A DNA stretch of 64,000 bases. Origin: Burkholderiales bacterium PBB3. Lineage in GTDB: Bacteria > Pseudomonadota > Gammaproteobacteria > Burkholderiales > Burkholderiaceae_C. Of the stretch, positions 6,764 through 56,595 are shown piece after piece. Under the pieces are notes generated by a model, which made no database searches, was not told the DNA's origin, and saw only the letters and a program-made list of their open reading frames with translations. How positions within the stretch are numbered: position 1 is the stretch's first letter; every line of letters begins with the position of its first letter. A program made the position numbers and the translations under genes. The stretch spans positions 1 to 64,000 of the forward strand of contig NKIK01000021.1 in NCBI GenBank assembly GCA_002256115.1, given 5' to 3'.

Positions 6764-7105
6764 CTTTCTATTGTTACATCTGGGTTGCTGGGTTTTGGTC
6801 GCCTGTTGTTCGTTGGCTCTCGCTCGGAGCTTGAACGGCAAAACGTTTTGCTTCGTGTCCCCCGGCCGCTGCGCGGCCTCCTCCTTTTACCTACGCAAAA
6901 CGCTTTGCCGTCCAAGCTCCTGGGTAGTGGGCTAGCAGACAGAAGATGTATGTCTGACGTGTCTTATACGGATCAGGTTGTCATTTGGGGTCGGGGTCCT
7001 ACAAAAAGAATTTCAAATTATTTTCAAAAGCGTTAACCCTTTTGTGGGGGCTGGTGCGTGTAAGCCCTGTTCGCTCTCATCAACTTTACTTTTTTGGAGA
7101 ACCTT
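6764..7105. other. divergent intergenic region of sigma and vWA genes
   Basis: This 342-nt gap contains no gene. It holds Repeat B copy 1 (6826-6920). The stretch 6990-7105 is AT-richer and must carry the promoter of the vWA gene. GTTAACCC at 7032-7039 followed 17 nt later by CGTGTAA at 7057-7063 could be an ECF-type promoter, but this is only a suggestion from spacing. Confidence 0.45.
6826..6920 (+). repeat. Repeat B copy 1, long hairpin with conserved loop
   Basis: The arms 6826-6851 and 6895-6920 are 26 nt each and complementary at 24 of 26 positions. They enclose a 43-nt loop beginning TTCGTGTCCCCC and ending TCCTTTTACCTAC. The loop and the innermost 8 nt of the arms match the copy at 22328-22420 (opposite strand), while the outer part of the arms does not. 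It lies just upstream of the sigma gene. Confidence 0.85.
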
Positions 7106-10243: not shown

Positions 10244-10666
10244 CTACTTAGGCGTTGAGGGCCAAATCGGCCGTTCAGGCCGTGGATAGTGCGGGAGCAG
10301 CTTCTTTTTTGATAGCGAATCCGCTTGCTTTTCAAAGCCCGATGTCGCGGTGCCTTGGTGGAAACGCATCTTCCAGCCGCCATCGGTGCGCTGCCACAGT
10401 GACGCGCGATTCGTATGGCGCTCAAGCTGGCCTTGTTCATTGACACGCGCAGACCGGTAGGTGAGCAGAGCCAGATTCTCCGCCAGCGCCTCGACCGCAA
10501 AATCCTGCGACCAAATCACTGCCGTTACGTCCTGCGTTGAAACACTGTCCACGATTTCTTGGCGTGTGTAGTGCGCGCCCGAACGGCCGAATTCGCGGAA
10601 AGAGGGGTGCAGCAGAGCTTCTAGCACATGATCAAGAAGGGGCAGATGAACTGCCCCGACGGCCAA
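10244..10666 (-). CDS. NTF2-like / DUF4440 family protein, probably altered at both ends
   Basis: The central 100 residues (ALLHPSFREFGRSGAHYTRQ through SLWQRTDGGWKMRFHQGT) look like the small NTF2-like DUF4440 family. No ATG is available: the frame opens with TTG at 10666 after an in-frame stop further upstream, and the usual N-terminal helix is short, so the start may be lost. The last about 25 residues (from about FEKQADSL to the stop) are encoded by Repeat A copy 3 read from its opposite strand, so the natural stop seems to have been replaced by repeat sequence. It is convergent with the diguanylate cyclase, with 2 nt between the stops. It may be a decaying gene. Confidence 0.5.
   Translation of the reverse strand: MAVGAVHLPLLDHVLEALLHPSFREFGRSGAHYTRQEIVDSVSTQDVTAVIWSQDFAVEALAENLALLTYRSARVNEQGQLERHTNRASLWQRTDGGWKMRFHQGTATSGFEKQADSLSKKKLLPHYPRPERPIWPSTPK
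10263..10316 (+). repeat. Repeat A copy 3, inside the 3' end of the NTF2-like gene
   Basis: A consensus-like 54-nt copy with the GGCC-GTTCA-GGCC mini-hairpin. AGCT is at 10299-10302 and TAGC at 10313-10316. It lies antisense inside the C-terminal coding part of the NTF2-like gene. Confidence 0.9.
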
Positions 10667-22289: not shown

Positions 22290-22327
22290 GGTTGAATTGT
22301 AGGGCTCCGAGGGGTTCAACAGCCCGC

Positions 22328-22420
22328 AGGGCAGGCCGGGATGGGCGTTCTGCGTAGGTAAAAGGAAGGAGCCCGGAGGGCGGGGGGACACGAAGCAGAA
22401 CGTCCATCCCGGCCTGCCCT
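22328..22420 (-). repeat. Repeat B copy 2, long hairpin with conserved loop
   Basis: The arms 22328-22353 and 22395-22420 are 26 nt each with 25 of 26 positions complementary. The 41-nt loop, read on the minus strand, matches the loop of copy 1 at both ends (TTCGTGTCCCCC and CCTTTTACCTAC). It lies in the 162-nt gap between the divergent thrB and polA genes. Confidence 0.88.
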
Positions 22421-22451
22421 GAGCGAATATCCAACAAAAGCACAGTGCAAA

Positions 22452-25295
22452 ATGCCCCCCATGACCGAAACCAAGAAAACCCTGCTGCTGGTAGACGGCT
22501 CCAGCTACCTCTACCGTGCCTTCTTTGCCGGTGGCGACTCCATGAGCACCACACTGCCCGACGGCACCGTGCAAAAAACCGGTGCCATTCGCATCATGAT
22601 CAACATGATGCAGAGCCTGCGCAAAGAAGTGCCCGCGGACTACGTGGCCTGCGTATTTGACGCCAAAGGCCCGACCTTTCGGGACACCATCTACCCCGAA
22701 TACAAAGCCAATCGCTCCCCCATGCCGGATGACTTGCGCAGCCAGATCGCCCCCATCCACGAGGTGGTACGCCTGCTGGGCTGGACCGTGCTGGACGTGC
22801 CCGGCGTAGAAGCGGATGACGTCATCGGCACGCTGGCCGTGGTCGCCGCCAACCAGGGTATTGAAGTGATCGTCAGCAGCGGCGACAAAGACCTGGCGCA
22901 GTTGGTCAACGAACACATCACCATCATCGACACCATGAACGGCAAGCGCCGTGATCTGGCGGGTGTGCAAGAAGAATTTGGCGTACCTGCGCACCTGATG
23001 CTGGACTACCAGACCCTGGTGGGCGACACCGTGGACAACGTGCCGGGCGTGCCCAAAGTGGGCCCCAAGACGGCCGTAAAGTGGCTGCAAGAGTACGGGT
23101 CTTTGCAGGGCGTGGTGGACAACGCCGCAAATATCAAAGGCGTGGTGGGCGAGAACCTGCGCGGCGCTTTGGGCTGGTTGCCGACCGGGCGATCCTTGCT
23201 CACCATCAAGACCGACTGCGACTTGAAGGAATGGTTGCCCGGACTGCCTGCTATGGAATCTATAGCTGCTCCCGCACTATCCACGGCTTCATTGCGTGAT
23301 TTTTATCTGAAATACGGCTTCAAAGGCCTGGCCAAGGCGCTGGAGGGGGCGGGCGACCCCGCGCCAGCGGGAAAAGGGGTTGGAGCCAGCTCCGCTTCGC
23401 TGCGTGGATCCGACCCGATTTCCTCCGAGCCCGGTCTGTTTGATGAAGCCAGCGCGGCATCTGCCCCGGCCCCCAAGGAGCCGCGCGTGCCGAATGCGGG
23501 TTACGACACCATCCGGACTTGGGAGGCCTTTGATTCGTGGTTGACCAAATTGCAAGCGGCCGAGCTGGTGGCACTGGATACCGAAACCACCTCGCTGGAT
23601 GAAATGCGTGCCGAGATCGTGGGGATTTCGTTCAGTGTGGAGCCGGGCAAGGCGGCCTATATTCCGCTGGCCCACCGCTACCCCGATGCGCCTGAACAGC
23701 TCAACCGAGAAGAGGTGCTGGCCAAGCTCAAGCCCTGGCTGGAAAACCCAGCCGCGCACAAGCTGGGCCAGCATGTGAAGTACGACCGCCATGTGTTTGC
23801 CAACCACGGTATTGAAGTGCAGGGCTATGCCCATGACACCATGCTGCAAAGTTATGTGCTGGAGGTGCATATGCCCCACGGCCTGAGCAGCCTGGCCGAG
23901 CGCCATGTAGGCCGCAGTGGCATCAGCTTTGAAGACCTGTGCGGCAAGGGTGCCAGCCAGATTTCCTTCGACCAGGTGGACATTGCCAAGGCGGCGGAAT
24001 ACTCCTGTGAAGACTCGGATCAGACACTGGACGTGCACCGCGTGCTGTGGCCGCAACTGGAAGCGAATGACAAGCTTAAGTTCATTTACGAACTAGAGAT
24101 GACCAGCAGTGAAACCCTGTACCGCATTGAGCGCAATGGTGTGCTGATTGATGCGCCCACCTTGGCCAAGCAAAGCCATGAAATCGGCCAGCGCATCCTG
24201 CAACTGGAGGCCGAAGCCTATGAGATAGCGGGCCAGCCCTTCAACCTGAGCAGCCCCAAACAACTGGGAGAAATTTTCTTTGACAAGCTGGGCATGCCGG
24301 TCGTCAAGAAAACCGCCACCGGCGCACGCAGCACCGATGAAGAAGTGCTGGAGAAACTGGCCGAAGACTACCCCCTGCCCGCCAAGCTGCTGGAGCACCG
24401 GGGGCTGGCCAAACTCAAAGGCACCTACACCGACAAACTAGCCCTGCTGGCGCTGCCGCGCACGGGTCGCGTGCACACCCACTATGCGCAGGCCGTGGCC
24501 GTGACGGGGCGGCTCAGTAGCAATGACCCCAATTTGCAAAACATCCCCATCCGCACGCCTGAGGGCCGCCGCGTGCGCGAGGCCTTTGTGGCCCCGGCGG
24601 GTAGCGTCATAGCCAGTGCTGATTACAGCCAGATCGAGCTGCGCATCATGGCCCACATCAGTGGCGACGCGGCCTTGCTCAAGGCGTTTCATGACGGCAT
24701 AGACGTGCACCGCGCTACGGCGGCCGAAGTATTTGGTGTGCCGGTAGAGCAGGTGGCCTCGGAGCAGCGGCGCTATGCCAAGGTGATTAACTTTGGCTTG
24801 ATCTACGGCATGAGTGCCTACGGCTTGGCGCGCAACTTGGGCATCGACAACACGGCGGCCAAGAACTACATCGCCCGCTACTTTGAACGCTACCCCGGTG
24901 TCAAAACTTATATGGAAAGCACGCGCGAACTGGCCAAAAAGCAGGGCTATGTGGAGACTGTATTTGGTCGGCGGCTGCAGCTTGCAGGCATCCAATCCGC
25001 CAAGGGTGCACAACTGGCAGGCCTGGAGCGTGCCGCCATTAACGCGCCCATGCAGGGCACGGCGGCGGACCTGATCAAGCTCAGCATGAACACGGTGCAA
25101 CAGGTGCTGGACGCCGAGCAGCGTGCCACCAAAATGATCATGCAGGTGCACGATGAGCTGGTGTTTGAAGTACCGCTGGGTGAAGTGGATTGGCTCAAGG
25201 AAGCCATACCGCGCCTGATGGCGGGTGTGGCCGACCTGAAAGTCCCACTTTTGGCCGAGGTGGGGGTCGGAGAAAACTGGGACAAGGCGCACTAA
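22452..25295 (+). CDS. polA: DNA polymerase I
   Basis: The 947-residue protein has all three domains. The 5'-3' exonuclease begins LLLVDGSSYLYRAFFA and includes VEADDVIGTLA, GDKDLAQLV and YQTLVGDTVDNVPG. The 3'-5' proofreading domain (from about 350) keeps its acidic residues in DTETTSLDE, KYDRHVFANHG and YSCEDSDQTL. The polymerase domain has motif A DYSQIELRIMAH, motif B RRYAKVINFGLIYGMSAYG and motif C MQVHDELVFEVP. It functions in Okazaki fragment maturation and excision repair. Repeat A copy 6 sits at about residues 267-284, near the end of the exonuclease domain, and encodes ESIAAPALSTA without shifting the frame. An ATG at 22461 is an alternative start. Confidence 0.97.
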   Translation: MPPMTETKKTLLLVDGSSYLYRAFFAGGDSMSTTLPDGTVQKTGAIRIMINMMQSLRKEVPADYVACVFDAKGPTFRDTIYPEYKANRSPMPDDLRSQIAPIHEVVRLLGWTVLDVPGVEADDVIGTLAVVAANQGIEVIVSSGDKDLAQLVNEHITIIDTMNGKRRDLAGVQEEFGVPAHLMLDYQTLVGDTVDNVPGVPKVGPKTAVKWLQEYGSLQGVVDNAANIKGVVGENLRGALGWLPTGRSLLTIKTDCDLKEWLPGLPAMESIAAPALSTASLRDFYLKYGFKGLAKALEGAGDPAPAGKGVGASSASLRGSDPISSEPGLFDEASAASAPAPKEPRVPNAGYDTIRTWEAFDSWLTKLQAAELVALDTETTSLDEMRAEIVGISFSVEPGKAAYIPLAHRYPDAPEQLNREEVLAKLKPWLENPAAHKLGQHVKYDRHVFANHGIEVQGYAHDTMLQSYVLEVHMPHGLSSLAERHVGRSGISFEDLCGKGASQISFDQVDIAKAAEYSCEDSDQTLDVHRVLWPQLEANDKLKFIYELEMTSSETLYRIERNGVLIDAPTLAKQSHEIGQRILQLEAEAYEIAGQPFNLSSPKQLGEIFFDKLGMPVVKKTATGARSTDEEVLEKLAEDYPLPAKLLEHRGLAKLKGTYTDKLALLALPRTGRVHTHYAQAVAVTGRLSSNDPNLQNIPIRTPEGRRVREAFVAPAGSVIASADYSQIELRIMAHISGDAALLKAFHDGIDVHRATAAEVFGVPVEQVASEQRRYAKVINFGLIYGMSAYGLARNLGIDNTAAKNYIARYFERYPGVKTYMESTRELAKKQGYVETVFGRRLQLAGIQSAKGAQLAGLERAAINAPMQGTAADLIKLSMNTVQQVLDAEQRATKMIMQVHDELVFEVPLGEVDWLKEAIPRLMAGVADLKVPLLAEVGVGENWDKAH
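23250..23303 (-). repeat. Repeat A copy 6, inside polA
   Basis: A copy in reverse orientation. The reverse complement of the core (CTCCCGCACTATCCAC) is intact, AGCT is at 23264-23267 and TAGC (as GCTA) at 23250-23253, with exactly 10 nt between. The distal part beyond 23290 is degenerate. It is read through in frame by polA. Confidence 0.88.
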
Positions 25296-31034: not shown

Positions 31035-33209
31035 ATGCGCAATTTCCGTTTTGTTGTGGGCGCGGTGGCTTGGGCCGCTTGTGCCGTGTCGGCTTTCTCG
31101 GCCCCTGCGGTGCAACCCATGGCTCCTGTGGGCATGGTGCAAGACACCCTGCACGGCGTCGTGGTCAAAGACCCATACCGTTATTTTGAAAACGTCAAAG
31201 CCCCTGAAGTACAAACCTGGCTCCGGGCCCAAGGGGCCTACAGCCGCGAGGTACTGGACCAAATCGCCGTGCGCGATGGCCTGGAAAAGCGCCTGACCGA
31301 GCTGACATCGGCCAATGGTGACGCCATCAATGGCATGGTGCGCCTGCCGGGCGACAAGATTTTTTACATGCTGCGCCCCAAGGGCGAGCGCCAGTTCAAG
31401 TTGGCTATGCGCACGGGTTTTGGTGGTGCCAATCGCATTTTGGTTGACCCCGAAGTGGCTGCCAAAGCGACCGGTGTGCCCCATGCCATCAATTATTTCA
31501 AACCCTCGTGGGATGGCAAATATGTCGCCTATGGCATGTCGGCAGGCGGTTCGGAAGACGCGTCGCTCTACATTCTGGACATTGCCACAGGCAAGACCGT
31601 GGGCGCGCCCGCACCCCGCGTGCATGAGAGCCTGGTGAGCTGGCTGCCCGACAGCCGCTCGGTGACTTACAACCAGCTCAAGGTCCCCACTGCGGGCGAG
31701 CCTGAAAGCGAAGCCTACCTGGACAGCCGCGTGATGTGGCTGAAAGTGGGTGCCGAGCCTGCGCAGGCCCAAGCCGTATTCGGCCCCACCGTCACCAAAA
31801 ACCTGGGCCTGGCGCGGCTGGATGTAGCCACCTTGATTTTTATGCCCGGCAGTCCCTGGGTGATTGCCCGCACCACCGACACCACCTTGCCGGAAGGTTT
31901 TTTGTTTGTGGCCAAAGCGGCTGATTTGGGCAAGCCCAGCTTGAAGTGGACCCGGATTTCCGGCTACGACGACAAAATCACTGCGGTGGAACTGAAGGGC
32001 AATGACCTGTACTTCATGACGCACAAGAATGCCCCGCGCAAGCAGGTGATGAAACTTGATCTGCGCAAGCCGCAGTTGGCCCATGCCCAACTGGTGGCGG
32101 CGGCCCCGGCCAATGGCGTGTTGGAAGATTTCTCATTGACGCGCGACGGCCTGATGGGCGCAGTGCGCCAGGGCACCGAGATCGTGCTGCGCCGCTATGC
32201 CACGGGCAACACAACCGGTGAGGCTATTGCCATGCCATTCCCCGGCGCGGCGCGCATGACCGAAGACCTGGCCCACGCCTACAGCGATGTGGTCTATACC
32301 TTAAGCGGCTGGACCCAAATGCCCCTGAGCTTTGTGCTCAAAGACAACGTGTCCACCGACACTGGCATGCGCGTGAACCCCGTGCTGCCCAATGCGCCGG
32401 ATGTGCAAGTGGAGAACGTAGAGGTCGCCAGCTACGACGGTGCCAAAGTGCCAATGACCCTGCTGTACAAGAAGAGTCTGCAACGGGATGGCAACAACCC
32501 AACCCTGTTAACCGGCTACGCGTCGTATGGCTTTTCGGAGACTGCCGGCTTCTCTCCCCAACGTCTGGCCTGGATCGAGCAGGGCGGCGTGATTGCCCTG
32601 GCCAATGTGCGTGGCAGCGGCGTGTATGGCGATGCCTGGTACCGGGCTGGCCAAAAGGCCACCAAGTCCAACACCTGGAAAGACGGCATCGCCTGCGCCC
32701 AGTATTTGATCGACCAGAAAATTGCCTCGCCCAAAACCCTGGGTGTGATGGGCACCAGCGCCGGGGGTATTTTTGTCGGCCGCTCGGTGACTGCCGCGCC
32801 GCAGTTGTTTGCTGCCGCCATTTTTGATGTGGGCGTGATGGACGCCGTGCGCGCCGAAGAAAGCGCCAACGGCATCACCAATATCTCGGAATTTGGCAGC
32901 TACAAAAACGCCGCGGAGTTTCCGGCGCTGCTGGAGATGAGCACCTACCACCAGGTGGTGGACGGCACGGCTTACCCTGCTGTGATGCTGGTGCACGGCA
33001 TCAACGACCCGCGGGTGGACGTGTGGCACAGCGCCAAGACGGCAGCACGCTTGCAAGCGGCCACCAGCAGCGCCAAGCCCATACTGCTGCGCCTGGATTT
33101 GCAGGCCGGCCACGGCATGGGCAGCACCGCCACCCAGCGCAATGCCCAAGCGGCGGATATATATGCCTTCTTGCTGTGGCAAATGGGCAAGACCACCCTA
33201 AAACCATGA
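31035..33209 (+). CDS. S9 family prolyl oligopeptidase, exported
   Basis: The 724-residue protein has a signal peptide ending AFSAP. The classical N-terminal S9A sequence (DPYRYFENVKAPEVQTWLRAQ) follows, then a propeller region and a catalytic domain with Ser in MGTSAGGIFVGR, Asp in GINDPRVDVW and His in QAGHGMGS. It therefore resembles true prolyl oligopeptidases, cutting short peptides after proline, unlike the neighbour upstream, which is of the YGGY type. GAGGTG precedes the ATG. The 3' end lies 10 nt before Repeat A copy 7. Confidence 0.92.
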   Translation: MRNFRFVVGAVAWAACAVSAFSAPAVQPMAPVGMVQDTLHGVVVKDPYRYFENVKAPEVQTWLRAQGAYSREVLDQIAVRDGLEKRLTELTSANGDAINGMVRLPGDKIFYMLRPKGERQFKLAMRTGFGGANRILVDPEVAAKATGVPHAINYFKPSWDGKYVAYGMSAGGSEDASLYILDIATGKTVGAPAPRVHESLVSWLPDSRSVTYNQLKVPTAGEPESEAYLDSRVMWLKVGAEPAQAQAVFGPTVTKNLGLARLDVATLIFMPGSPWVIARTTDTTLPEGFLFVAKAADLGKPSLKWTRISGYDDKITAVELKGNDLYFMTHKNAPRKQVMKLDLRKPQLAHAQLVAAAPANGVLEDFSLTRDGLMGAVRQGTEIVLRRYATGNTTGEAIAMPFPGAARMTEDLAHAYSDVVYTLSGWTQMPLSFVLKDNVSTDTGMRVNPVLPNAPDVQVENVEVASYDGAKVPMTLLYKKSLQRDGNNPTLLTGYASYGFSETAGFSPQRLAWIEQGGVIALANVRGSGVYGDAWYRAGQKATKSNTWKDGIACAQYLIDQKIASPKTLGVMGTSAGGIFVGRSVTAAPQLFAAAIFDVGVMDAVRAEESANGITNISEFGSYKNAAEFPALLEMSTYHQVVDGTAYPAVMLVHGINDPRVDVWHSAKTAARLQAATSSAKPILLRLDLQAGHGMGSTATQRNAQAADIYAFLLWQMGKTTLKP

Positions 33210-33218
33210 ATTTAAGAC

Positions 33219-33272
33219 CAAAAGGCCATTGCAGCCCGTGGATAGTGCGGGAGCAGCTATGACATTGATAGC
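33219..33272 (+). repeat. Repeat A copy 7, forms the start of the ZIP gene
   Basis: A 54-nt copy with AGCT at 33255-33258 and TAGC at 33269-33272. The N10 segment begins with the ATG of the ZIP gene at 33259, and the invariant GGGAG of the core (33249-33253) serves as its Shine-Dalgarno sequence. Confidence 0.92.
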
Positions 33273-34071
33273 AATCTTGGTGGGCACCCTGGTCGCCGGT
33301 ATTGGCAGCGTGTGGTTGGCTGCGGCCTTGAGCTTTGGGGTGCTGGCCCGCTACACCCAGCACATGCTGAGTCTGGCAGCCGGGGCCTTGCTGGCCACGG
33401 CCTTCATGCATTTGCTGCCCGAGGCGTTTGAGAGCCAGGCAGGGGCGCACGACCTCTTTCTGACGCTGCTGTTTGGCTTGGTGTTCTTCTTTTTGTTGGA
33501 CAAGGCTGAGCTATGGCACCACGGGCATGAGCACCACCAGCACGCCGCGCCTGCCCAAGGCGATGGCCATGAACATCACCACGATCATGGCCATGACCAT
33601 GGACACCACCACGCTGCCCAGCCCGGCAGTTGGGCCGTGCTCACCGGCGACAGCGTGCATTGCTTTGGCGATGGCGTCTTGATTGCGTCGGCCTTTATGG
33701 CCGATTTGCGCCTGGGGGCCATTGCCTCCCTGGCGGTGCTGGCGCATGAGGTGCCGCACCACATGGGCGACCTGATGGTGCTGCGCTCAGGCACCAGCAA
33801 CAAGCGCATGGCGCTGGTGAAGGTGTCGTTGGCGGGCGCCGTCACCGCTTTGGGCGGCGTGCTGGGTTTTTGGCTGGTAGAGCAGTTGCAAGACTATTTG
33901 CCCTACTTTTTGGTCGTGGCGTCCAGCAGCTTTGTCTATGTGGCGCTGGCCGATTTGATTCCCCAACTGCAAAAACACCTGAATGCGCGCGAAACGGCGG
34001 TGCAAATTACCTGGCTGCTGGCCGGCATTTTGCTGGTCAAACTGGTGAGTGGCCTGGCCCACGGGCACTGA
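33259..34071 (+). CDS. ZIP family divalent metal transporter
   Basis: The 270-residue protein has about seven to eight membrane helices and a histidine-rich cytoplasmic loop (about residues 88-125) with many HH and HGH runs that would bind Zn2+ or related metals. The conserved ZIP helices contain HCFGDGVLIASAFM and LAHEVPHHMGDLMVL, in which the His, Asp and Glu residues form the metal path. The start at 33259 is chosen because the hydrophobic N-terminus begins there; the frame runs further up into Repeat A. The start codon and ribosome binding site lie within the repeat, and so do codons 1-4. It stands alone between the S9 gene and the RND operon. Confidence 0.9.
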   Translation: MTLIAILVGTLVAGIGSVWLAAALSFGVLARYTQHMLSLAAGALLATAFMHLLPEAFESQAGAHDLFLTLLFGLVFFFLLDKAELWHHGHEHHQHAAPAQGDGHEHHHDHGHDHGHHHAAQPGSWAVLTGDSVHCFGDGVLIASAFMADLRLGAIASLAVLAHEVPHHMGDLMVLRSGTSNKRMALVKVSLAGAVTALGGVLGFWLVEQLQDYLPYFLVVASSSFVYVALADLIPQLQKHLNARETAVQITWLLAGILLVKLVSGLAHGH

Positions 34072-34179: not shown

Positions 34180-34914
34180 ATGTCTGAAACTCTAACTGCC
34201 GTGCCAGCCAGCGCCAAGCCATTGCGCAGCGATGGGCAAGAGGCCCGCAACCGTCTGCTGGATGCGGCGCTGGGCCTGTTTGCCGACAAGGGATTTGCCA
34301 AAACATCGATCCGCGAAATTGCCCAAGCCGCGCAGGTCAATGTGGCCTCCATCAGCTACTACTTTGGCGACAAAGACGGTTTGTACCGCGCCGTGTGGAC
34401 CGACCCGCGTTGCAACCCGGATTGCGGTTTTGCCAATGGTGCCGATAGCGATGTGTCTCTGACCGACGCCCTGCGCGGCATGCTGCGCGGCTTTGTCGAG
34501 CCGCTCAAGCAGGGCGAGCTGACGCAGCGCTTCATGAAGCTGCATTTTCGGGAAATGCTGGAACCCACGGGCGTTTGGCAGCAAGAAATTGACAACAACA
34601 TCAAGCCCTCGCACATGGCCCTGGTTAGCCTGCTGTGCCGCCATTTGGGTGTTGACCAAGCCGATGACGACATCCACCGCCTGTGCTTCAGCATTGCAGG
34701 CCTGGGGATGATGCTGCATGTGGCGGGTGATGTGTTCACCGCCATTCGCCCGGAATTGGTGGCCTCGCCCGAGGCGCTGGATGTGTATGGCGACCGTCTG
34801 CTGACTTACGCACTGGCGGTTGTAGAGGCAGAACGGCTGCGCCGTGTTGCCTTGCCACCTGCTTCTCTTTCCTCTAAACCCCCCCGCAAATCTACCCAGA
34901 AGCCAAACCCATGA
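34180..34914 (+). CDS. TetR family repressor of the RND efflux operon
   Basis: The 244-residue regulator has a TetR DNA-binding domain at about residues 22-70 (RNRLLDAALGLFADKGFAKTSIREIAQAAQVNVASISYYFGDKDGLY in parts: LLDAALGLFADKGF, then TSIREIAQAAQVNVASISYYF) and an all-helical ligand domain resembling the CerR/DUF1956 type. Its stop overlaps the ATG of the outer-membrane efflux gene, so it is the first gene of the operon that it probably controls. A perfect palindrome upstream is a likely autoregulatory site. There is no good Shine-Dalgarno sequence. Confidence 0.9.
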   Translation: MSETLTAVPASAKPLRSDGQEARNRLLDAALGLFADKGFAKTSIREIAQAAQVNVASISYYFGDKDGLYRAVWTDPRCNPDCGFANGADSDVSLTDALRGMLRGFVEPLKQGELTQRFMKLHFREMLEPTGVWQQEIDNNIKPSHMALVSLLCRHLGVDQADDDIHRLCFSIAGLGMMLHVAGDVFTAIRPELVASPEALDVYGDRLLTYALAVVEAERLRRVALPPASLSSKPPRKSTQKPNP

Positions 34915-36344
34915 TGTTGCATTCCCTTCGAAATTTCACGCCCCTGGTGGCGGCGCTCCTGCTCAGTGGCTGTGCCAGTTTGATGCCGCCCACGCAGGTC
35001 GATTCATCGGTGGCGGCGGCCTGGTCTGCGCCTTTGCCGCACCAAGGCACGGTCACCCAGCTAGCCCAGTGGTGGCAGCAGCAGGGCGATCCTTTGTTGG
35101 CAGAGCTGATCACAGCGGCGCAGGCGGTGAGCCCATCGGTATCGCAATCGCTGGCGCGCATAGAGGCGGCCCGCGCCAATCAGGCCCTGGCCCGTTCGGC
35201 GCTGCTGCCCAATATCTCGGCCCAGGTAGGTGTGAGCCGCGGCGTCAGCCAACCCGCCATTCCGGTGGCCACCACCTCGCAGTTGGGTGTGCAGGCTTCT
35301 TGGGAGCTGGATGTGGTGGGTGCCAACCGCGCGGTCAGCAATGCAGCCATGGCCAATCTGGAAGGCAGCCAGGCCCAGTGGCATGACGCGCGCGTGTCGG
35401 TGGCCGCCGAAGTTGCCAATTTGTACTACAGCCTGTCGACCTGCACCCAGCAGTTGGCCCTGGCCCAGCGCGATGCCGCGTCCCGCGCCGAGACGGCGCG
35501 GCTGACCGAAATCAACGCCAAAGTTGGCTTCTTGGCGCCCTCGTTGGCGGCCATGGCGCGCGCCAGCGCGGCGGATGGCAAAAGCCGCGCCACCCAGCAA
35601 AGTGCGCAGTGCGATATAGAAACCAAGAGCCTGGTGGCACTGACAGCCATTCCAGAGCCTGAATTAAGAAAGAAATTGGCCTCCAAGCCCGTGGATAGTG
35701 CGGGAGTAGCTCCTATTTCTGTAGCAAACGTGCCTGCACAAACTATCAGCCAGCGCCCCGACATTTACGCCGCCGAGCGCGATGTGGTGGTGGCCAGCGC
35801 CCAGGTGGGCAGTGCCAAGGCCCAGCGCTTTCCGCGCCTGAGCCTGAATGGTTCTATCGGCTCCATGCGGGTCAGCAGCGGCGGTGTCGACCAGGATGTG
35901 TCTACGTGGTCGTTTGGCCCCTTGGCCGTGAGCGTGCCACTGTTTGACGGCGGCCAGCGCGTAGCGGCGGTCAAGTCGGCCGAGGCCAATTACGCAGCCA
36001 CCGTGGTCGCCTACCGGGGCAAGGTGCGCAACGCGGTGCGCGAGGTGGAAGAAGCCCTGGTGAACTTGCAAAGCACCGAAGCGCGTGCCGAGGACACCAA
36101 GGTGTCCACCCAGGGCTACGCGGAATCCTTAGCCGCCACCCAATCCCGCTTCGGCCAGGGCCTGGCCAGCTTGGTAGAGCTGGAAGACGCCCGGCGCAAC
36201 GCGCTGGCATCCGAGTCCGCCCAACTGGGCCTGCGCCTGGAGCGCAACCGCGCTTGGGTGGCGCTGTACCGCGCCCTGGGCGGTGGCTTTGAGCCCGGCG
36301 CTGCGGCAGCCGCCACGACTACGGCCAACGCTTCTACGTACTGA
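34911..36344 (+). CDS. RND efflux outer-membrane lipoprotein (NodT family)
   Basis: The 477-residue protein has a lipobox LLLSGCASL and two OEP domains of alternating coiled-coil and beta segments (first about 60-250, second about 280-465, with QRPDIYAAERDVVVASAQVGSAKAQRFP). It is the TolC-like exit duct of the tripartite pump encoded by the next two genes. Repeat A copy 8 lies at about residues 254-272 in the linker between the two halves and encodes KPVDSAGVAPISVAN in frame. Homologues normally have a variable linker here, so it seems to be tolerated. Confidence 0.93.
   Translation: MMLHSLRNFTPLVAALLLSGCASLMPPTQVDSSVAAAWSAPLPHQGTVTQLAQWWQQQGDPLLAELITAAQAVSPSVSQSLARIEAARANQALARSALLPNISAQVGVSRGVSQPAIPVATTSQLGVQASWELDVVGANRAVSNAAMANLEGSQAQWHDARVSVAAEVANLYYSLSTCTQQLALAQRDAASRAETARLTEINAKVGFLAPSLAAMARASAADGKSRATQQSAQCDIETKSLVALTAIPEPELRKKLASKPVDSAGVAPISVANVPAQTISQRPDIYAAERDVVVASAQVGSAKAQRFPRLSLNGSIGSMRVSSGGVDQDVSTWSFGPLAVSVPLFDGGQRVAAVKSAEANYAATVVAYRGKVRNAVREVEEALVNLQSTEARAEDTKVSTQGYAESLAATQSRFGQGLASLVELEDARRNALASESAQLGLRLERNRAWVALYRALGGGFEPGAAAAATTTANASTY
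35672..35725 (+). repeat. Repeat A copy 8, inside the efflux outer-membrane gene
   Basis: A 54-nt copy with AGCT at 35708-35711 and TAGC at 35722-35725. The core has a single change (GGGAGTAGCT). It is read in frame in the gene's own direction. Confidence 0.9.
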
Positions 36345-53765: not shown

Positions 53766-56453
53766 TTACTTAGGCACTTTATAGACCAGCCTGAAGCGGC
53801 CGCTGGTGGCCATTTCGTTGGCATCCAACCCGTAGCCCACGTAGATGGAGGCCCCCTCAAGGCCTGTGAGATCGGTGTCGGTCAAGATTTGTGCGCGCAC
53901 CACACTGTCTTGGTTGTCTAGCGCCACACCGCGCAAATACTCGCCAATGGGCCACACCAAGTTGCCCCAGCCCTTCACGCCATCGAGCTGAAAGTACAGG
54001 GGCTGCGTGCCATTGGGCACGGCGGCGGCTACATACACGTTGTAGCCCCGCGTGGCGTTGGGCCGCGCTTTGCCGTTGGCGGATGCGGTGGGAGGGTTCA
54101 GCAGGCCGCGCAGGTCCACCGACAGCGTCGTGTTTTTTTTGCCTCCTACTTTTTGGGTGGATGCAAAGAAGGTGGGCAGTTTGCTAGGGTCTGTCGGCAA
54201 GTTGGGTACGGCCAGATTCAAATCGAGCAAGTTGCTGAATTGCTCGTTGATAACAGCCACGCTATCGGCATGAAAGGCATAGGTGCCATCGCCCAGGCCG
54301 CCTTCGATATTGAGGCCCCAGGACCACACCGTGCCATCAGTCTTGGCCACCAGGCTGTGGGCCAGCCCGGCGGTGATGCTGCTGGCATTGCCCAAGCCCG
54401 GAAACTCCAGCGGGAAGCCCACGGCGTAGGCGTCTTCGTCGGTTATCACCAGGCCCCAGACCCAGACACTGCCGTCTTTGCAGAGTGCCATGGAGTGGTT
54501 GGTGCCCGCCGCAATGGCCACCACATTGCTCAGGTTGGCAATGCGCGCAGGCAATGCAATGCCCGCATCCAGCTGCAGATTGCCCAGGATGCCATTGGTC
54601 TGGTCGCCCCAGGCCCACACCCTGCCGTCTGACCCCAGTGCCAGGGCATGCTGAGACCCTGCCGCCACGGCCACGATGGTGGGCAAACCATTGATGCGCG
54701 CGGGCAAGGTCCGGTAAGACTCATTGCCCACAGCGGTGGTGCTGGGGTCCACACCCAGCTCGCCAAATTTATTTGTGCCCCAAGACCAGACGCTGCCATC
54801 GGTGCGCAGCGCCAGGTTGAAGCCGGACCCGGCAGACACCTGGCTCACGCTGGTCAGGTTTTTGACTTGGATGGCATTCCCGCGCTGCGAATGCGTGCCC
54901 TGGCCCAATTCGCCCTCCTGGTTGCTGCCCCAGGCCCAGACCGTACCGTCGGATTTGCGGCCAATGGAGTGCAAGGAGCCGCCACTGGCTTGCGTCATAT
55001 TGCCAACCCCGACTACTTTGACGGGCTTGGTTTTGGAGTCGGTGGTTCCGTCGCCCAATTGGCCGCCCAGGTTGTAGCCCCAGGCCCAAACGGTGCCGTC
55101 AGACTGCACCGCCAGCGAATGCCGGAAGCCCCCAGCAATGGAAGTGATACTGCTCAAGCCTGCCACGGTGTTGGGCAGCGTGCGGTCGGTGTCGGTGGTC
55201 AGGCCCAGTTGGCCCGCCAGGTTTTCACCCCAGGCGTACAACTGGCCGTCTTGGGTCACGGCCATGGTGTGCCCAACGCCGGGCTCGGCGGCCAGCACGC
55301 CACTAAAGGCCGGAACGCGCGCGGGTGCGGCGCGGTTGGCCGCAGATCCGTCGCCCATTTGACCGGTGGTGCCAGCACCCCAGGTCCAGGCGTTGCCCGT
55401 GGTGTCAATGGCAATGGTGTGGTTGTAGTGGGTTTTGATGCGGGCAATATTGCTCAGGCCCGGCACCTTGGCGGGGCTCAGGCGCGCGCTGATACCGCTG
55501 ACACCCAACTGCAAATAGTCGTTGTTGCCCCAAGCCCAAACGCTGCCGTCCTGCGCCAGGGCCACGCTGTGCTGGCCGCCCGCGGCAATGGCCACGATGC
55601 GCGGCAAACCCGTGATCTGTGCGGCGTAAGGGCGGCTGAACTCTGTGCCATCTCCCAAGCGGCCGTCGGTGTTGGTACCCCAGGTCCAGACACCGCCATT
55701 GGAATCCAGTGCAATGGCGTGGTAGACGCCTGCGGCCACTGCTACCACGTTAGACGGGCCGTACACAAACTGCGCAGAAGGAGTAGCCACGTCAGTGCCA
55801 TCCCCCAATTGGCCACCCACGTTATCCCCCCAAGCGATGACGTAGCCATTGATCACCGCCAACGCAAATGCAAACCCTGCCGCCACAGACTGCACTTGCA
55901 GACCCTCCAGGCCAGCCACTTTCACGGGACTGTATTCGCTGTCTTGCACACTGGCGTCATAGCCAGTGCCCAGTTGCCCGGAATCATTGCTACCCCAGGT
56001 CCACACGCTGCCGTCCGATTTCAGCGCCATGGTGAATGCGAAGCCCGCTGACACGGCCGTGGCCTGCTTGAGGCCCTGCACGGCAGTGGGGGTGGATTTA
56101 GCGGTGATGCTGCCGTCCCCCAGTTGACCTGCCAAGTTATCACCCCAGGTCCAGACGGTTCCATCGGCTTTGACAGCGGCATTGTGATACGCGCCCGAAG
56201 CGAGCTTGGCAGTGTTAGCAGCACCCAGGTTCATGCCGGGCACCTTTTGCGGTGTACCCAAAAAGGTGGCGCGGCCAATGCCCAACTGGCCGCTGTTGTC
56301 ACTGCCCCAGGTTAGTACTTTGCCGTCGGATGTGAGTGCCATGCTGTGGCTCAAGCCCGCAGCCACCATGGGGGTGGCGGCCACAGCGGGCAGGGCCAAT
56401 GACACCAACAAGCCGAGGCCGGTTGCAAGTTTCCTTTGAAATGATGACTTCAT
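53766..56453 (-). CDS. exported RCC1-repeat beta-propeller protein
   Basis: The 895-residue protein has a signal peptide (LATGLGLLVSLALPAVAA) at the start chosen at 56453, where AGAGG precedes it; a much longer frame upstream is spurious. It contains 14 recognisable RCC1 units, each with a core like VWTWGDNLAGQLGDG, between residues 25 and about 730. Fourteen units would make two seven-bladed propellers. A C-terminal domain of about 150 residues (from LDLNLAVPNLPTDPSKL) is non-repetitive. RCC1 repeats in bacteria are usually secreted or surface-exposed protein-binding modules. It is divergent from the antiporter gene. Confidence 0.85.
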   Translation of the reverse strand: MKSSFQRKLATGLGLLVSLALPAVAATPMVAAGLSHSMALTSDGKVLTWGSDNSGQLGIGRATFLGTPQKVPGMNLGAANTAKLASGAYHNAAVKADGTVWTWGDNLAGQLGDGSITAKSTPTAVQGLKQATAVSAGFAFTMALKSDGSVWTWGSNDSGQLGTGYDASVQDSEYSPVKVAGLEGLQVQSVAAGFAFALAVINGYVIAWGDNVGGQLGDGTDVATPSAQFVYGPSNVVAVAAGVYHAIALDSNGGVWTWGTNTDGRLGDGTEFSRPYAAQITGLPRIVAIAAGGQHSVALAQDGSVWAWGNNDYLQLGVSGISARLSPAKVPGLSNIARIKTHYNHTIAIDTTGNAWTWGAGTTGQMGDGSAANRAAPARVPAFSGVLAAEPGVGHTMAVTQDGQLYAWGENLAGQLGLTTDTDRTLPNTVAGLSSITSIAGGFRHSLAVQSDGTVWAWGYNLGGQLGDGTTDSKTKPVKVVGVGNMTQASGGSLHSIGRKSDGTVWAWGSNQEGELGQGTHSQRGNAIQVKNLTSVSQVSAGSGFNLALRTDGSVWSWGTNKFGELGVDPSTTAVGNESYRTLPARINGLPTIVAVAAGSQHALALGSDGRVWAWGDQTNGILGNLQLDAGIALPARIANLSNVVAIAAGTNHSMALCKDGSVWVWGLVITDEDAYAVGFPLEFPGLGNASSITAGLAHSLVAKTDGTVWSWGLNIEGGLGDGTYAFHADSVAVINEQFSNLLDLNLAVPNLPTDPSKLPTFFASTQKVGGKKNTTLSVDLRGLLNPPTASANGKARPNATRGYNVYVAAAVPNGTQPLYFQLDGVKGWGNLVWPIGEYLRGVALDNQDSVVRAQILTDTDLTGLEGASIYVGYGLDANEMATSGRFRLVYKVPK

Positions 56454-56595
56454 TTTCGTACCTCTGGTGCTTTGTGTCATTCTCGCACCATGCGGCACGC
56501 CCCGGCTACACTGTGCCTTGGGTGTGGCCCTTGCAATCGGCGGGGGCCACAGGTTTTTTGCGTTGGTCGGGCCGCCACGCGTTCCAGCTACGTCT

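Follow-up and report, generated by a model that had tools for sequence, protein, structure and literature searches.

A dispersed repeat with genome-specific cores overlies the probable translation start of a ZIP transporter gene

Can a short dispersed repeat provide the ribosome binding site and the start codon of a protein-coding gene? The question is raised by one copy of a repeat, here called repeat A, which lies across the start of a ZIP metal transporter gene in the window, a stretch of 64,000 nucleotides that was analysed as a whole. The genome of the window, G000, comprises 4.76 Mb in 118 contigs and is 94.9% complete. The locus contains the following features.

31035-33209, plus strand: upstream gene of the prolyl oligopeptidase family, ending 49 nt before the ZIP ATG
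33218-33274, plus strand: copy of repeat A over the ZIP start, made up of an A/T tract, hairpin 1, the core and hairpin 2
33235-33251, plus strand: hairpin 1, predicted, pairing the GGG of GGGAG; the fold is no stabler than that of shuffles (z 0.54)
33238-33258, plus strand: dialect-A core GTGGATAGTGCGGGAGCAGCT, with 524 copies in the genome within 3 mismatches
33249-33253, plus strand: GGGAG, Shine-Dalgarno-like, 5 nt before the ATG, anti-SD duplex -6.6 kcal/mol
33256-33272, plus strand: hairpin 2 of repeat A, with arms GCTAT and ATAGC, the 5' arm including the first two bases of the ATG
33259-34071, plus strand: ZIP metal transporter gene (Pfam Zip), 270 aa, its very probable start ATG within the repeat

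Repeat A is imperfectly palindromic and about 55 bp long, and at the ZIP gene it has the order CCAAAA..GCCC-GTGGATAGTGCGGGAGCAGCT-ATGACATTG-ATAGC. In this copy, CCAAAA occupies 33218-33223 and GCCC 33234-33237, followed by GTGGATAGTGC, GGGAG at 33249-33253, CAGCT at 33254-33258, the ATG at 33259-33261 and ATAGC at 33268-33272. The stretch from AGCT to ATAGC spans 9 nt, or 10 if the variable A is counted. A preliminary description had placed GGGAG five to six nucleotides before the ATG and the early ZIP codons, up to codon 4, inside the repeat. Both statements agreed with our analysis: the spacing is 5 nt, and repeat A codes for codons 1-5, with the terminal ATAGCA forming codons 4-5 (Ile-Ala). 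In the Rfam scan, no match at or above the gathering score was found at repeat A copies. The sole match in the window was a candidate nhaA-I riboswitch at 56520-56579 (51.7 bits, gathering cut-off 37). Next to it, positions 54283-56330 contain an internal repeat series (family D2) with a spacing of about 150 bp, RCC1-like on the minus strand by eye.

The ZIP reading frame matched PF02535 with 100.7 bits (cut-off 35.1), residues 3-261 aligning with profile positions 8-320. Against the zinc transporter ZupT model (NCBIfam NF003243), it scored 57.5 bits, below the equivalog cut-off of 252. The nearest ZIP proteins were found at loci of Rhodoferax and other Comamonadaceae or Burkholderiales MAGs. 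Eighty orthologous loci were fetched, and 74 of them were compared for the start and the Shine-Dalgarno (SD) sequence. L016, L031, L064, L066 and L076 were excluded from the SD comparison because the match did not begin at residue 1 or upstream DNA was lacking, and L032 was also excluded, without good reason. An orthologue was called repeat-bearing when GCT preceded the start and an arm resembling ATAGC followed. By this rule a related repeat in the same register was present at the ZIP start in 21 of the 74 orthologues, from Rhodoferax, Polaromonas and Curvibacter among others, which indicates that the overlap of repeat and predicted start is not peculiar to the version of the repeat in the window genome. 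Decayed repeats at L020, L026, L038 and L068 were counted among the 53 others in the SD comparison.

The repeat-bearing orthologues were informative about where translation begins. The ATG was at the same position in 21/21, a GC-rich hairpin upstream was mostly present (by eye), and ten had an in-frame stop at codon -3. In 18 of the 21 there was no in-frame start at all between the upstream stop and the ATG, the exceptions being L045, L052 and L069, and ATG33259 is therefore very probably the translation start of ZIP. The Zip profile, which is matched from residue 3, points the same way, and the earlier proposal that the ZIP N-terminus begins at the ATG of the repeat was very probably correct. 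Initiation further upstream within the repeat, at TTG33229 or GTG33238, would add 10 or 7 residues (MQPVDSAGAA or VDSAGAA). Both codons are present in the window, where the frame stays open as far as codon -20. However, the extra residues would be the core's own coding in that frame, residues of this type are absent from the ZIP orthologues listed, and the lack of any earlier start in those 18 orthologues also speaks against it, which makes an upstream start very improbable.

The strength of the SD sequence gave a different picture for the window and for the family. The anti-SD energy of the window ZIP gene was compared with a median of -0.7 kcal/mol in the 21 repeat-bearing orthologues, of which the strongest, L054 (-7.0), surpassed the window, and with a median of -3.6 kcal/mol in the 53 other orthologues. 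Among 333 predicted gene starts of the window genome, the median was -2.8 kcal/mol, and 16.5% were at least as strong as ZIP. The nearest relative, L001, has an ATG-bearing repeat with a different core and an SD energy of -2.2. On these predicted energies, the repeat family as a whole provides no ribosome binding site, since 16 of the 21 repeat-bearing orthologues have an SD weaker than the gene median of the window genome. The good SD at ZIP appears as a property of the window genome's own dialect A, which carries GGAG, because the related repeats on the ZIP start mostly have a weak one. In the lineage of the window, where dialect A places GGAG at SD distance, ZIP very probably also has its ribosome binding site in the repeat. 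The preliminary claim that the repeat provides both the ribosome binding site and the start codon thus holds for this copy, in which the SD, the ATG and codons 1-5 are all repeat sequence, and fails for the family, in which the SD is mostly weak. In the predicted RNA fold, the GGG of the SD and the AU of the start codon are both taken up by hairpins of the repeat, and the SD may therefore act only weakly. Comparison with shuffled sequences ruled out an unusually stable RNA structure at the ZIP start.

The preliminary description had suggested an alignment of ZIP homologues as a way to see whether their N-termini lack the segment encoded by the repeat. They do not lack it. In the repeat-less Hydrogenophaga orthologues L044, L065 and L080, ZIP begins MTLIAILIGT with other codons, and in the window and its repeat-bearing relatives the same kind of N-terminal residues is encoded through the ATA GCA of the repeat. 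Judged by these alignments, the repeat brought no N-terminal segment to ZIP, since orthologues that lack it have almost the same peptide from the same first residue; the gain of a new segment was ruled out on this ground. A protein tree was built with the N-terminal 10 residues omitted, and the four decayed loci were set aside, leaving 71 rows for the count of the repeat label. The window ZIP and L001, itself repeat-bearing, were sisters (SH-aLRT 95). The label required 11 changes over the 71 rows on weak branches, so that a single old origin of the repeat at this site was not established, and the tree is compatible with a single origin as well as with multiple ones.

Copies of dialect A with an ATG at the same place were then compared with the ZIP copy. 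Such copies were rare: six exact matches and four with one mismatch elsewhere in the core were found. Seven of these ten open just 8 to 75 codons, and in one (L252) the ATG lies inside a gene with prolyl-tRNA-synthetase-like domains, as an internal codon. The remaining two open a plausible gene, namely ZIP with 270 codons and an alpha/beta hydrolase with 360 codons at L254 (1540-2622 of L254; G000 contig C74, about 55239-56321). The L254 copy has one core mismatch and an SD energy of -7.4, and PF00561 is matched from residue 91 of the protein. It probably starts the hydrolase gene as the ZIP copy starts ZIP; the case is weaker than for ZIP because 111 codons upstream are open in the same frame and include other start codons. 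A role of the repeat as a general start codon was ruled out by these proportions. Among 57 sampled dialect-A copies, two reached across a predicted gene start, one in antisense orientation. At L153/L154 (G000 contig C31, 59824-61275), the first residues of a predicted gene, presumably malonyl-CoA-decarboxylase-like, are encoded by a repeat A copy, with the start uncertain.

The copy at ZIP belongs to a large family. The core GTGGATAGTGCGGGAGNAGCT occurs in G000 268 times on one strand and 256 times on the other within 3 mismatches, and 436 copies are within 1 mismatch of its 20 specified positions; the reversed-pattern control gave 0, which puts the repeat well outside chance, and the flanks are conserved as well. 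Within 1 mismatch, 1-2 copies were present in 7 of 60 other genomes and none in 53. In 464 kb examined closely, 44 exact and 15 one-mismatch cores were found (shuffled controls 0), together with 9 cores with 2 to 4 mismatches (about 0.4 expected); beyond that, matches were background. These nine kept TGCGG in 8 and AGCT in all 9 cases, and differed mostly in the 5' half. Six of them lay in genes; of the 59 cores with at most 1 mismatch, 15 did. Partial matches of this kind would be in keeping with a piecewise replacement.

The placement was studied in 57 copies chosen by TAGTGCGGGAGNAGCT, and another copy alignment was chosen by GATAGTGCGGGAGNAGCT, so that invariance at the positions of these strings is built in. 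Genes were predicted with a home-made hexamer model. By this model, 42 of the 57 cores lay outside predicted genes, with non-coding DNA making up 12.9% of the sample, and 12 of these 42 fell in the 24 convergent gaps (among 238 gaps of more than 40 nt). The other 15 copies were wholly within predicted genes, seven on the coding strand and eight antisense, one of the latter in a low-scoring, doubtful ORF (window 10244-10627). All seven coding-strand copies are read in the frame GAT AGT GCG GGA GCA GCT, and of the remaining two frames, one is interrupted by TAG. The smallest gap between copies was 924 bp. The spacing did not stand out as more even than random (CV 0.94, simulated 0.974), as 41% of the simulations were as even. 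In the set L141-L157 (G000 contigs C12 and C31), repeat A copies also lie inside dnaX-, addA/uvrD-, nadE-, allantoate amidohydrolase- and acyl-CoA synthetase-like genes, with all these names assigned by eye.

In the related genomes the same architecture was found with other cores. A generic pattern (GCCC, 14-20 bases, GCTAT, 6-9 bases, ATAGC) gave 10 to 367 matches in each of the 13 genomes that supplied repeat-bearing ZIP loci, and 0 or 1 in the reversed control; the Rhodoferax, Polaromonas and Curvibacter genomes contained tens to hundreds. Each of six profiled genomes had its own commonest core, or dialect: GCCC-AGGTAAAAACTGCCTGAGTA-GCT in G061 (the genome of L001), GCCC-ATTAAGTACGGGCGCAAGCA-GCT in Polaromonas G068 and GCCC-TCGTGGAATATGCGTAAGCA-GCT in G066, for example. 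The profiles of the relatives cover one length class only, with rows used per matches of 49/146 in G061, 40/135 in G066, 40/367 in G068, 39/121 in G065, 40/157 in G071 and 27/44 in G067; dialect A is represented by 55 copies gathered by their own core. Seven of the 29 generic matches in G000 look older: they begin with GCCCAGG, as in the dialect most frequent in G061, and survive alongside dialect A.

Several sites are shared between genomes, and the fit of each copy to the dialect of its own genome was therefore evaluated by the profile score at the ZIP site and by the distance to the consensus at two sites within genes.

35671-35728, plus strand: repeat A copy, in frame in a NodT-type outer membrane factor gene (34911-36344), encoding KPVDSAGVAPISVA
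23248-23302, minus strand: repeat A copy, antisense within the DNA polymerase I gene (22452-25295)

In 6 of 7 genomes, the copy at the ZIP site received its best score from the profile of its own genome; Curvibacter L045 did not. At the NodT site, the orthologous sequence is GCCCAGGTAAAACCTGC.. in G061 and GCCCCCGCAGTACCTGCGCAGG.. in G014 (the genome of L059/G071), and all three copies, including that of the window, were nearest to the consensus of their own genome. At the polA site this was true of 2 of 3 copies, with G061 failing. In total 11 of 13 copies fit the dialect of their own genome, or 8 of 10 without the three rows of the window, which are dialect A by construction owing to the way its profile was gathered. 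The two copies outside their own genome's dialect, Curvibacter L045 at ZIP and G061 at PolA, count against a replacement in place.

Gene length was unchanged at the NodT and PolA sites. The presence or absence of the repeat was judged by eye in the alignment rows of NodT, PolA, NadE and the GNAT-like gene, and some rows of the NodT and PolA alignments share one genome. NodT residues 251-285 had gaps in none of the 26 rows of at least 65% identity, of which four were repeat-less (L071, L121, L124 and L139); gaps occurred in 12 of 18 more distant rows. PolA residues 259-292 had no gaps in 17 orthologue rows, eight of them repeat-less. NadE (C31 85264-87003) had none in 12 rows from 10 genomes, all repeat-like, and a 3-residue gap relative to PDB 4f4h, which has no repeat-like segment. 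Two genes were less clear: a GNAT-like gene varied in length at its repeat site, and an enoyl-CoA hydratase (C31 57890-58684) had about 12 residues more at the repeat than its best PDB homologue. As far as these alignments go, a length-neutral, dialect-wise change of the core fits gene conversion or an uptake-sequence-like drive better than insertion, since such replacement at shared coding sites disfavours plain insertion.

The family was compared with known systems. REP/REPIN elements form genome-specific sequence classes with hundreds of short, imperfectly palindromic, mostly intergenic copies (PMC3116915, PMC2817692). Repeat A resembles such elements with RAYT in all these respects. It differs in occurring as single copies of about 55 bp with two unlike hairpins and in sharing sites inside genes without indels; with a smallest gap of 924 bp, the 57 copies contained no inverted REP-type pairs. 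The DNA uptake sequences (DUS) of Neisseriaceae have species dialects and copies in genes, where a stop codon limits the frames (PMC3630211). Repeat A is like DUS and the USS of Pasteurellaceae in its hundreds of copies on both strands, in-gene copies restricted in their reading frame, species dialects and length-neutral replacement. Unlike DUS and USS, whose cores of about 9-12 bp are shorter, it has a core of 20 bases with flanks conserved to about 55 bp. Its spacing did not stand out from random. The AGTGCGG in the dialect-A core is close to the Haemophilus USS core, which we take as a lead only.

Rickettsia palindromic elements (RPE) are inserted in frame into ORFs and read within proteins, as PMC10969869 describes. 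Repeat A shares with RPE and in-gene MITEs that a short repeat is read in frame inside proteins; the NodT and PolA copies, unlike these elements, leave the length unchanged. An inserted block of the MITE/RPE type was not found at NodT (26 rows) or PolA (17 rows). In the same bacterial class, the beta-proteobacterial repeat element (BRE) is about 90 bp long with 69% GC in Bordetella, has at most 29 copies that are sometimes tandem, and is reported in Bordetella, Rhodoferax and Polaromonas; it is usually intergenic, though some copies sit within ORFs or extend a few bases into an ORF end (PMC3110155). By this description, BRE would differ from repeat A in its greater length, its fewer copies and their sometimes tandem arrangement. 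Another dispersed repeat of the GGGGGACACGAAGCAGAACG type lies in the window at 6813-6940 and 22327-22426, partly as an inverted pair, with many matches in genomes of the same genus, and may possibly be BRE-like. A GGGGGACACGAAGCAGAACG-like sequence is also inserted in frame, with 28-31 residues, in the GNAT-like gene of L230, L233 and L234. The Correia, ERIC, BOX and similar small repeats adjoin genes and have possible effects on expression, whereas repeat A contains the start codon itself. These small repeats are listed in PMC3110155. No description of the repeat A family was recognised in searches of open-access papers, one of them by DNA strings. In the text covered of the R. ferrireducens genome paper (PMC2755013), the word palindromic was used solely for CRISPR arrays and a reference, and a term search of PMC3733652 returned neither Rhodoferax, Polaromonas, Acidovorax nor Comamonadaceae.

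Taken together, we regard it as likely that ATG33259 starts ZIP and that the SD comes with dialect A in the window genome; in relatives, a related repeat with other cores overlies this start. According to this explanation, the last hairpin arm GCTAT would supply the context of the ATG, and the repeat end ATAGCA would serve as codons 4-5, suiting an N-terminus that is also found in repeat-less orthologues. An older core at the ZIP site would have been replaced in place by the genome-wide dialect A, which would bring GGAG to SD distance, and the repeat would thereby double as the ribosome binding site. True recruitment would instead mean that the repeat was selected as the start of ZIP, turning a gene coupled to its upstream neighbour into one with a free-standing start whose initiation is regulated by the hairpins. 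Such a change is suggested by the repeat-less L017, L062 and L027, in which the ZIP start touches or overlaps the upstream stop and is twice a TTG, next to the repeat-bearing L028 and L042, in which a similar upstream gene (by eye) is followed by a 49-nt gap with repeat and ATG. The ATG and pairing arms were kept in all 21 repeat-bearing orthologues, partly owing to the selection rule, and the probable second case at L254 with its strong SD is in keeping with recruitment. However, conserved arms and start codon are no proof of regulation, because the repeat family and the protein constrain both, the upstream gene in the window is a different one, a peptidase, the fold is no better than shuffles, and the SD is weak in most of the repeat-bearing orthologues. 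We consider recruitment doubtful.

As for the family, gene conversion between copies, an uptake-sequence-like drive and transposition remain as candidate drivers. If the copies were ordinary REP/MITE-type insertions, the match to the dialect at shared sites would reflect repeated insertion at preferred places. The excess of cores outside predicted genes, the small palindromic arms, the longer enoyl-CoA hydratase and the variable length of the GNAT-like gene are what insertion would leave. The sites common to relatives with different cores, the NodT and PolA copies without an indel against repeat-less relatives, the NadE alignment (no indel in its repeat-bearing rows and 3 residues against the PDB structure) and the absence of REP pairs are not, and we hold this explanation to be rather unlikely. 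A more specific idea, which we hold to be unlikely, is that a Comamonadaceae uptake-sequence-like signature, consisting of the A/T tract, core and hairpin motif, occupies many fixed sites. Species core dialects would sweep these sites, including those in frame in polA, nadE and the efflux channel gene, by length-neutral replacement via biased uptake and recombination, and the ribosome binding sites at starts such as that of ZIP would be rewritten as a side effect. A ComEC-type protein (PF03772) is present in G000, and the E. coli control has one too.

A repeat lying over one gene start, as at ZIP, is modest when taken by itself. More surprising is that shared sites seem to be rewritten dialect by dialect with no change in length. 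For annotation, the case is a warning that an SD within such a repeat can belong to the repeat rather than to the gene. If dialects of this repeat of about 55 bp do replace one another in place at many orthologous sites, the bacterial chromosome would hold a natural record of concerted evolution, and DNA that is driven or neutral would have a way to rewrite protein segments and ribosome binding sites with no indels.
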